Assembly (NCBI RefSeq): GCF_002937075.1
Contig: NZ_NHSJ01000039.1
Location: 1 to 64,000 of the forward strand
Direction: 5' to 3'
DNA length: 64,000 nt
Origin: Rhodoblastus sphagnicola
GTDB lineage: Bacteria > Pseudomonadota > Alphaproteobacteria > Rhizobiales > Beijerinckiaceae
This document shows positions 33,531 through 36,014 of this stretch, piece by piece (positions within the stretch are counted from its first letter, which is position 1; each line of letters opens with the position of its first letter). The position numbers were made by a program, and so were the translations under genes. Under the pieces are notes generated by a model. It did not search any database, was not told the origin of the DNA, and saw only the letters and a program-made list of their open reading frames with translations.

Positions 33531-33663
33531 GACAGCCTCGTTGGAGCGGCTGTTTTGGGCGCGCGCGCAAGGGAAGTCAATTGCAGGGCCCGTTCCGATC
33601 CGCCGCTTTCAAAACACGCCGGCGCGCCCTATATTCTGAAGCGAAGACAATTTGGAGCAGCGC

Positions 33664-34041
33664 ATGGCCGGACGCCCCGTTATGGATCTCACCGACGCAG
33701 CGGCGACGCGCGTGAAAACGCTGGTGGACAAGGCCGCCGGCGCGGCCATCGGCCTGCGGGTCGGCGTCAGGAACGGCGGCTGCGCCGGCATGTCCTACAC
33801 GGTGGAAATGGCCGACGCGCCACGCCCCGGCGAAATTCTGGTCGAGGACAAGGGGGCCAAGGTTTTGATCGACCCGAAAGCCGTGCTGTTCCTGATCGGC
33901 GCGCGGATGGATTTCGAGACGACCAAAATGTCGGCCACCTTCACCTTCAAAAACCCCAACGAAACCGCGTCCTGCGGCTGCGGGGAATCGGTGGCGATCA
34001 CGCCGGTCTCGGAAGAGGCGCTCAGCCAGTTCAACGCCTGA
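33664..34041 (+). CDS. A-type Fe-S carrier (SufA/IscA-like)
   Basis: This 125-residue HesB/IscA-family protein has the three expected cysteines: one in NGGCAGMSY near residue 40 and two in SCGCGES near 107-109. It also has the family's VEDKGAKVLIDPKAVLFLIGARMDF middle section. A-type carriers pass Fe-S clusters from the assembly scaffold to target proteins. ATG 33664 has a GGAG site; a TTG four codons upstream is less likely. It is divergent from trpG. A second A-type carrier is at 42.8 kb, so the two may serve different targets. Confidence 0.92.
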   Translation: MAGRPVMDLTDAAATRVKTLVDKAAGAAIGLRVGVRNGGCAGMSYTVEMADAPRPGEILVEDKGAKVLIDPKAVLFLIGARMDFETTKMSATFTFKNPNETASCGCGESVAITPVSEEALSQFNA

Positions 34042-34088: not shown

Positions 34089-34184
34089 GTTCGAGACGGC
34101 CCCCTCCGGGGCCTCCTCACCATGAGGGGTGGCAGATTGAGTCCGCGCCTATCGGGTTAACGCCTACACCTGCTGCATGTAGAG
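34089..34184 (-). repeat. Left inverted copy of a ~97-bp repeat bounding an islet
   Basis: Read on the minus strand, it begins CTCTACATG, passes through GCGTTAACCCG and ACCCCTCATGGTGAGGAGGC, and ends GCCGTCTCGAA. The same order appears on the plus strand at 35288-35384 with roughly three quarters of positions shared. Internal symmetry (CCTCCTCACCATGAGGGG) resembles other dispersed repeats. Confidence 0.75.
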
Positions 34185-34338
34185 CGGTCGCGCGCTTGGG
34201 TAAAGGCAGAGAGCGGCTCGAAGGCGACCTTCCCGACACGCCCGCGATGGTCTCTTCATCACCCAAAGCCGACGGTCGCCGCCGTCGCGACGAGCAAAAA
34301 TCAAGACTTTCGCAAAGCACCATATCGAGGCTATCGCC

Positions 34339-35055
34339 ATGAGTCATGTGCCTGTCAGAATATCGAACCAGCAGATTGAGCAGGCGCATTTTGAAGAGTT
34401 TCGCAAAGCTTATGCGTTGCCGCCTGGAGAGATCAAATATTCGGACAAACCGGATGTTTTTTTAAAGGGCGACCGCACGATAGGAATCGAAATTACCAAT
34501 TTCTATGTTCGGCCGAACGAAGCAGAAGGAAGCGAGCAAACGCAGCGGCCGCTTAGAGACGCCATCATATCAAAAGCCCATAAGTTGTATCGAAAAGCTG
34601 GCGGTAAGGAGATCATACTTTCGATCGCTTTTGATCCAGAAATACGAATTACCAAGGATAGATGCAAGGTGTTGCCGCAAATATTGGCGAATTTCGCTAC
34701 GCAAATCGACACGCAACCAGAGGGACAAATCGATACCGATAGCTATCCCGAGATGCCGGAGCTCAATTGGATTCACACGAGCGGCCGAGAATTTCAGAAT
34801 GGCAATTTTGAGCTCGTTCAGTCGTATTCCGTTCCTATAATGCCCGTCGCGAGACTAAACGATATTGTTACCGAGAAAGAAGGGAAGGCCGCCGACTACC
34901 ACAAGTGCGATGCCTATTGGCTATTGATCGTCGTTGATTTCTGGAACCCGGCGCAAGATCAGGAGATCACCACGCAACCGATTAAACTTGCCTCTAAAGT
35001 TTTTGAAAAAATCATTCTCTTCAAGACCTGTCATAGGCAAATCGTGGAGATCTAA
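34339..35055 (+). CDS. Unrecognised protein with a nuclease-like PD...IEIT segment
   Basis: This 238-residue protein is visibly richer in A/T than its neighbours, with AT-ending codons common. An early segment, DKPDVFLKGDRTIGIEITNF (residues ~36-55), then a basic helix, DAIISKAHKLYRKAGGKEI, resembles the core of restriction-endonuclease-like proteins. The usual Lys of the catalytic triad is replaced by Thr, and no full motif can be confirmed. No membrane segment or signal is seen. It is the only gene between the inverted repeats at 34089 and 35384, suggesting transfer. Function unknown; start ATG 34339 is the first clear one. Confidence 0.7.
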   Translation: MSHVPVRISNQQIEQAHFEEFRKAYALPPGEIKYSDKPDVFLKGDRTIGIEITNFYVRPNEAEGSEQTQRPLRDAIISKAHKLYRKAGGKEIILSIAFDPEIRITKDRCKVLPQILANFATQIDTQPEGQIDTDSYPEMPELNWIHTSGREFQNGNFELVQSYSVPIMPVARLNDIVTEKEGKAADYHKCDAYWLLIVVDFWNPAQDQEITTQPIKLASKVFEKIILFKTCHRQIVEI

Positions 35056-35427
35056 ACCCATCAATTGTCGTAGTAAATTCGTCGTCCAGAATTTTTTGGG
35101 AATCGAGGGCCTCGTTTATCAGAATTTGTGAGTTTCGAAACGCGCCTTCTTGTCCGCCGCACGGCGCCGTTGGTTGCACGACGAAGGACGGCTTATGGAG
35201 CCAAACCACCAAATTCTGGCGGCGTCCGCGTCCTTCCGCTTCCCGTCGGACTCGGTCGATCATGCCGCCTCAATCTGGCTCGCCTCCCTCTACATGTTGT
35301 GGGTGTATGCGTTAACCCGGTAGGCGCGATTGATTCCGTTGAACCCCTCATGCTGAGGAGGCGAGCAAAGCTCGCCGTCTCGAAGCGCGAGGGGATCAAC
35401 CCACGACGTTCTCAGCAGTCGCGTCGC
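35056..35427. other. Intergenic region with the right inverted repeat copy
   Basis: No gene is evident. The left part (35056-35240) has mixed composition without a coding frame; the right part carries the repeat at 35288-35384. Confidence 0.6.
35288..35384 (+). repeat. Right copy of the ~97-bp repeat bounding the islet
   Basis: This copy begins CTCTACATGTTGTGGGTGTA, continues through GCGTTAACCCGGTAGGCGCG and ACCCCTCATGCTGAGGAGGC, and ends GCCGTCTCGAAG. It is the inverted partner of 34089-34184. Confidence 0.75.
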
Positions 35428-35904
35428 CTAACCTCGCGCCGATGGGGCCAGCGCCCCGCCGCCCAACCGCGTCAGCAAATCCCGCACCTGCGCGTCGATC
35501 AGCGGCAGCGCCATGCGCGGCGGCGCGACGTCGATGTCGTGGACATGCCAATATTCGATGCGATCCGGCGCGCGCTCCAGCCAGGCGGGGAAGCGCGCCT
35601 GCATCAGCGGCAGGTGCTCCGCGCGTTTCAGCGCGACAATGTGATCGGCGCCGTCGAGATCCTCGACCGTGACCTGAAGCGGAGAGCGGGCGGAGTCGCG
35701 GTCGAAGGCGAGGCCGCGTTCGCTCAGGGCCTGCGCGGTGGCGCGCGCGATCGGGCCGATATTGCCGGAGCCGAGATCGACGGCGACGCCGCGCGAAAAC
35801 GACGTCCAGCCCGGACAGACGTCCGGCGCGAGGAAATTGAACAATTCTTCCGCGAACCGGCTGCGATAATAATTGCCGGTGCACAGGAACAGCACTTTTT
35901 TCAT
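35428..35904 (-). CDS. Low-molecular-weight phosphotyrosine phosphatase-like protein
   Basis: This 158-residue protein has the CX5R loop at the N-terminus (VLFLCTGNYYRSR, Cys8 and Arg14) and the LMW-PTP/arsenate reductase fold order. The general-acid loop, normally DP followed by an aromatic residue, reads WHVHDID near residue 115, so the canonical DP is not evident. It may act on phosphotyrosine, phospho-arginine or arsenate. ATG 35904 puts the loop at the standard position. It is transcribed alone toward the islet and lies upstream of the phosphoesterase gene tail. Confidence 0.82.
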   Translation of the reverse strand: MKKVLFLCTGNYYRSRFAEELFNFLAPDVCPGWTSFSRGVAVDLGSGNIGPIARATAQALSERGLAFDRDSARSPLQVTVEDLDGADHIVALKRAEHLPLMQARFPAWLERAPDRIEYWHVHDIDVAPPRMALPLIDAQVRDLLTRLGGGALAPSARG

Positions 35905-36014
35905 GGCGCGGCCTCGCGGCGGTGGTTTGCCCCGCCTATGCCACGGCCAAGAGCCAATGGCCATGTGTCATTGGCCATGTCATTCTCGCGCCGCCCGCCC
36001 GAAGGATCGCGCGA

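Follow-up and report, generated by a model that had tools for sequence, protein, structure and literature searches.

The segment at positions 34144-35328 of the analysed window (the whole stretch of 64,000 nucleotides, G000:C39:1-64000, from a 5.09-Mb draft genome of 141 contigs) is, with a probability of roughly 90%, a mobile insertion cassette, a kind of non-autonomous DNA transposon, with outer termini of the IS1595 family, one foreign gene and no transposase. The element lies in an interval of ~1.39 kb enclosed by a gene at 33652-34041 and a convergent gene at 35428-35964, which are HesB/IscA-like and phosphatase-like, respectively, as judged by their motifs. Within this interval, one open reading frame with relatives encodes a protein of 238 amino acids (34339-35055, forward strand) and has a GC content of 46.6%, compared to 65% for the window. 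Repeat finding in the window placed inverted arms around this gene at 34144-34184/35288-35328 (41 nt, 85%), with further arms at 34111-34130/35343-35362 (20 nt, 95%) and 34124-34146/35264-35286 (23 nt, 78%), and blastn aligned 35288-35384 with the left flank in reverse orientation at 76%. A sequence-only reading of this DNA had described an islet of one gene between ~97-bp inverted repeats aligned from end to end; the arms and the reading frame were confirmed, whereas the single end-to-end repeat was not.

The supposed 97-bp repeat is a stack of two unrelated repeats, a REP and an element end, with an 8-bp duplication between them. We rejected a single repeat since its outer and inner parts match different sets of loci in the window's genome. 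Searches of this genome with the flanks, which returned 31 and 61 matches with self matches and both repeats pooled, showed that the outer ~60-85 bp are a dispersed REP-like repeat. The inner 41 bp and a type-specific ~50 bp form a separate repeat, the transposon end, and an 8-bp target duplication separates it from the REP. The mobile unit is the gene with the inner repeats and the REPs are host DNA, so the boundaries drawn in the earlier reading move inwards to 34144-35328 and leave the REPs outside, while its view of a non-autonomous element with cargo stands. From left to right, the locus comprises a REP-like repeat with dispersed copies in the genome (34070-34131), the left target duplication ATTGAGTC (34136-34143), a type-2 element end on the forward strand (34144-34240) in which the common outer ~40 bp are followed by CGCGCGCTTGGG..GGCAGAGAGCGG, the cargo gene, a type-1 element end on the reverse strand (35232-35328) in which the common outer ~40 bp are followed by GGCGAGCCAGATTGAGGCGGCATGATCGACCGAGTCCG, the right target duplication ATTGATTC (35329-35336), placed by flank comparison and empty REP pairs, and a second dispersed REP-like repeat (35337-35410). 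The two copies of the duplication are identical at 7/8 positions. The 1185-bp extent of the whole cassette follows from the homology of its ends, from the target duplications and from empty sites at paralogous REP pairs. Related ends occur elsewhere, and the two ends score 84.9 bits (type-2, model R2) and 89.1 bits (type-1, model R1) with models whose training sets include these same sequences.

Removing the element and one copy of the duplication from the flanks leaves an inverted REP pair, and 20 distinct uninterrupted REP pairs, drawn from 50 partly overlapping loci of the same genome, align over the junction. Exactly ATTGATTC occupies the duplicated position in 14 of these 20 pairs. In addition, the two convergent neighbour genes share 11 bases in the congener G001, which leaves room for neither REP nor element. 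This gene-level empty site comes from one genome because the phosphatase gene lies close to the HesB-like gene in one of the stretches from ten relatives; the comparison with relatives proposed in the sequence-only reading produced an arrangement lacking the insert. The cargo gene was found in one of 11 genomes of the genus, that of the window itself. As the outer repeats form a pair of REP-like sequences, one could alternatively envisage that a REP/BIME structure captured the gene and was moved by a REP-associated transposase. We consider this exceedingly improbable, given that insert-free REP pairs are common in the genome, that the 8-bp duplication, which lies within the REP spacer, marks the boundary, and that none of these REPs lies within 200 bp of the 19 other cassettes that we found in the genus. 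Under the preferred reading, a transposon with its own ends, a pre-existing inverted REP pair in the spacer between the HesB/IscA-like and phosphatase-like genes would have served as the landing site, and the cassette would have inserted at the 8-bp site ATTGATTC within the REP spacer, duplicating these 8 bp.

The inner repeat was found at seven further loci of the window's genome. Six of these have it as an inverted pair, two of which the ungapped repeat finder reported, and C105 has it singly. Together with the window's cassette, the six paired units make seven that span 1.1-3.8 kb. Alignment of their ends revealed two types, which have the outer ~40 bp in common (CGYGCCTATCCGGTTAACGCATACACC..) and differ in their interiors, and each of these first seven pairs, assigned by eye, had one end of each type. 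Models R1 (type-1) and R2 (type-2) were built from the seven pairs and used in a profile search of 11 genus genomes, after which 30 retrieved stretches were rescored and pairs were chosen by orientation (+ then -) irrespective of end type. This yielded 13 further pairs, seven in G010, two each in G000 and G005, and one each in G002 and G003. Twelve of these 13 pairs, all absent from model building, were clear in type, and all 12 combined a type-1 with a type-2 end; the right end of the 13th, L176, was ambiguous. The total is thus 20 cassettes of 0.8-14 kb in five of the 11 genus genomes, 19 of them with one end per type, a count that covers the retrieved stretches and leaves out weaker R1 or R2 matches outside them. 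Some ends in G010 are weak (for example, E 0.03 for the right end of L180). The search for paired copies with different cargo, suggested as a check on the sequence-only reading, was therefore productive, with 20 further elements, of which 19 come from the genus and one from a plasmid. At the family level, R1-type ends at E 1e-6 occurred in 11 of 199 genomes and in four of 43 genera. At L169 (G000:C74), two type-2 ends at 2710 and 4608, identical over 42 bases, lie 1.9 kb apart with flanks that are alike (GATGATTC, AATGATTC), an arrangement suggestive of cassettes in tandem.

Consistent with movement as a unit, the 8-bp flanks were equal at seven or all eight positions in 8 of the 20 pairs, compared to 1 of 380 mixed left/right pairings. 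The termini of L072, L073, L076, L177 and L189 were set or shifted by 1-5 bp by eye with the flanks in view, and the duplications of the window's cassette, L078 and a 14-kb unit in G002 required no by-eye choice of terminus. The other 12 pairs showed no clear duplication, and since they lack one and many ends are decayed, chance may account for some pairs, particularly L180, L181 and further ones in G010. Besides the 20 pairs, there were 24 single ends for which no partner was validated by a matching duplication at the loci examined, a search that was weak where the terminus is unrecognisable (L172, L190, L197 and one end of L178) and that covered only ~3 kb for L194-L198; L198 has a weak second end of 15.6 bits without a matching duplication. 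Repeats dispersed singly had been named beforehand as an observation that would speak against the islet, and this was observed in part, alongside the pairs. The single ends would fit an account in which two independent MITE-like repeats flank a resident gene by chance and have never moved together, but the 12 of 12 type-1/type-2 combinations among clear independent pairs, the frequency of unit-spanning duplications and the empty REP pair all argue against it. Because the target duplication lies outside the whole unit, we regard such a chance arrangement as very unlikely.

We also searched plasmids for distant matches with one end and obtained ten records, all from sphingomonads except one from Methylocapsa polymorpha; five of the ten were examined in detail. 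With type-1 ends as query, the outer 30-42 bp were 88-97% identical to those of a transposase-bearing insertion sequence (IS) of the IS1595 family, and similarity on the sphingomonad units was limited to these outer 30-42 bp, with no match to the subterminal type-1 or type-2 sequence. L214 contains an element of 1150 bp in which the ends enclose an IS1595-family transposase (NCBIfam NF033547, transpos_IS1595, 207 bits), while L216 is a similar element with an annotated DDE transposase and L212 has the ends with no annotated gene between them. Each of these three sphingomonad units has an 8/8 duplication, as does the cassette on the Methylocapsa polymorpha plasmid, which measures 966 bp and carries a cupin gene. 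Neither tblastn nor six-frame comparison detected a relative of the L214 transposase inside the 21 cassettes. The window's cassette accordingly has IS1595-family-like terminal repeats and an 8-bp duplication, and the IS1595-type transposase gene is absent from it and present in the IS with matching ends.

Since an IS of the IS1595 family has the same outer ends and 8-bp duplications, we assign the element to the mobile insertion cassettes of IS1595 type. An IS with these outer ends would supply an IS1595-family DDE transposase, which would recognise both ends, move the whole unit and leave 8-bp duplications behind, and we infer that a transposase of this type moved the cassette in trans. Within the genus, there were 17 IS1595-like transposase matches at 17 loci, and C118, in the window's genome, was the only one of these loci with an R1 or R2 match, its transposase fragments adjoining the end. 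The other two transposase matches in this genome are distant (28% and 25% identity), and the element now appears to be stranded there without an intact cognate transposase. Transposase matches with E values of at most 1e-50 were found in two of 199 sampled genomes of the family; in one of the two, G159, end-like sequence flanks a partial match (67% identity over residues 1-189) on both sides. The target duplications, the paralogous empty sites, the gene-level empty site in G001 and the 20 further pairs support the original proposal of a non-autonomous element carrying cargo.

The cargo varied throughout. A six-frame comparison of the 21 interiors (frames of at least 60 amino acids, with 120 bp trimmed from each end) detected no protein in common between any two cassettes at E 1e-5. 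Pfam matches in the sister cargo included DUF1963, an autotransporter with PAP2, LGFP repeats, GGDEF/PAS, choloylglycine hydrolase, MFS with phosphatidylserine decarboxylase, a penicillin-binding transpeptidase domain, BLUF, Hint, a PEP-CTERM motif (two cassettes), TIR and nSTAND/WD40, ferric reductase, short-chain dehydrogenase, LRR/Roc/COR with a weak TIR match, and cupin. A motif or domain name was common to two pairs of cassettes, and four cassettes, including that of the window, had no Pfam match at E 0.001. Interior GC was below the window's 65% in 20 of 21 cassettes and equal to it in the largest, the 14-kb unit L186+L107 (G002:C2:37884-51856). This unit has the two end types and a perfect 8-bp duplication, with GTCCTGAT on either side, and our reading of its open reading frames points to phytochrome-like, response-regulator and other genes. 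A 5.8-kb cassette at L177 (G010:C157, 4081-9836) encodes TIR-domain and nSTAND/WD40 proteins, a pair that resembles a defence system. At L077 (G000:C105, 599-3195), reverse transcriptase and FGE-sulfatase-domain genes, in a layout that we take to be like that of a diversity-generating retroelement, stop at a type-1 end; a second cassette end was not found at this locus, which is a candidate member only.

These observations suggest that one skeleton, a type-2 end plus a type-1 end, spreads different genes. It is possible, and we put this forward only tentatively, that the pair of ends is a dedicated, IS1595-derived and transposase-free gene-capture skeleton that repeatedly swaps complete single genes or operons and is moved in trans. 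The genus would then hold a dispersed, integron-like gene reservoir between two conserved ~100-bp ends, spanning blue-light receptor, phytochrome-like, diguanylate cyclase, penicillin-binding-domain, TIR/nSTAND and transporter genes. Cassettes of this kind look like ordinary strain-specific genes unless their ends are known, and are therefore hard to annotate; the end models together with target duplications make them findable in this genus. That 21 cassettes have no protein in common suggests that cassettes without a transposase can contribute broadly to gene gain, and are more than an oddity confined to a handful of resistance genes.

Mobile insertion cassettes such as MIC231 of Bacillus cereus, mic-qnrD and mic-qnrS2 are described as having inverted repeats, a passenger gene, no transposase and a target duplication, with mobilisation in trans proposed or shown (PMC3913671; PMC3129680). 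The window's element likewise carries a passenger gene between inverted repeats, with no transposase inside and a target duplication, and because the known cassettes have the same defining features, we class it with them; the initial impression that no element with this layout had been described is thus incorrect. The cassette mic-qnrD has 24-bp repeats and a 2-bp duplication (PMC3913671), unlike the IS1595-type outer ends and 8-bp duplications seen here. A literature search that covered sources in part returned no description of IS1595-ended mobile insertion cassettes, a result short of proof of absence. The number in one genus (20, up to 14 kb), the diversity of a cargo with no protein in common and the two distinct types of long end also set the present cassettes apart and make them unusual. 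IS1595-family ISs are alike in outer ends and 8-bp duplications. Transporter ISs, described as IS copies that include passenger genes (PMC3129680), are interpreted by us as keeping their transposase, whereas no relative of it was found in these cassettes.

The cassettes resemble MITEs in being non-autonomous and in having IS-derived ends and a target duplication, but their cargo consists of full genes. The smallest pair measures 824 bp, and no copy devoid of cargo was recognised among the elements found. We rejected a MITE for the window's element because the conserved 238-aa gene means that it is not a short sequence without coding capacity. A composite transposon was likewise rejected, as the ends are ~100 bp long, with no transposase relative, and are not two full IS copies. 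Like integron gene cassettes, the set holds many different single genes in one common skeleton; unlike them, its end repeats are inverted rather than direct, and the units are dispersed and have target duplications.

Finally, we examined the 238-aa cargo protein of the window. A pattern-based scan, which gives a lower bound, found ten relatives at 37-46% identity in scattered groups, defining an unnamed family. Searches of Pfam, NCBIfam, PADLOC and PDB sequences at E 0.001 returned nothing for the protein, and its alignment had no match in Pfam or PDB. No relative was present on viral contigs, and plasmids contained one partial match. Searching PHROGs with the alignment returned six unnamed families, the best of which, phrog_35865, was matched by three of the 11 members, with a best E of 8.7e-05 among members and 0.084 for the window's protein. 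A structure model of fair quality (pLDDT 85, pTM 0.66, from 11 sequences) has the order helix-strand-strand-strand-helix-strand, and E14, D39 and E51-x-T53 are invariant in all 11 aligned sequences. This order and the residues E14, D39 and E51 resemble a PD-(D/E)XK core. The PD..(D/E)xK motif is incomplete, with threonine at the position of the catalytic lysine in 11 of 11 sequences. Foldseek found no significant match (best E 0.095 in PDB and 0.07 among viral structures); ten of the 50 viral fold matches listed, none of them significant, had names such as VRR-NUC, RecB, Cas4-like or PD-(D/E)XK, and the PDB matches showed no such accumulation of nuclease names.

The protein may be a degenerate PD-(D/E)XK nuclease; we give about even odds that it has a nuclease-like fold and lower odds that it has a role in defence. 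The suggestion of a nuclease-related, perhaps defensive, protein in the sequence-only reading is therefore weakly supported: the predicted strand and helix order fits, together with D39 and E51, while the missing lysine and the lack of a PADLOC or significant fold match do not. A stronger version, in which a lone PD-(D/E)XK-type nuclease with a defensive role is the cargo and the cassette owes its spread to defence, could draw on these invariant residues, the modelled order, the nuclease-named viral matches and the one sister cassette with TIR and nSTAND genes. We consider it rather unlikely, as the same shortcomings apply and Pfam names suggestive of defence are missing from most of the sister cargo. 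In Burkholderia sp. WAC0059 (L041, 4290-5791), a relative of the cargo gene and an acetyltransferase-like open reading frame lie between 64-bp inverted repeats (91%). No plasmid matched these repeats, and a search within 6 bp of their termini revealed no duplication of at least 5 bp; the repeats differ in sequence from the R1 and R2 ends, and the unit is perhaps an independent cassette.
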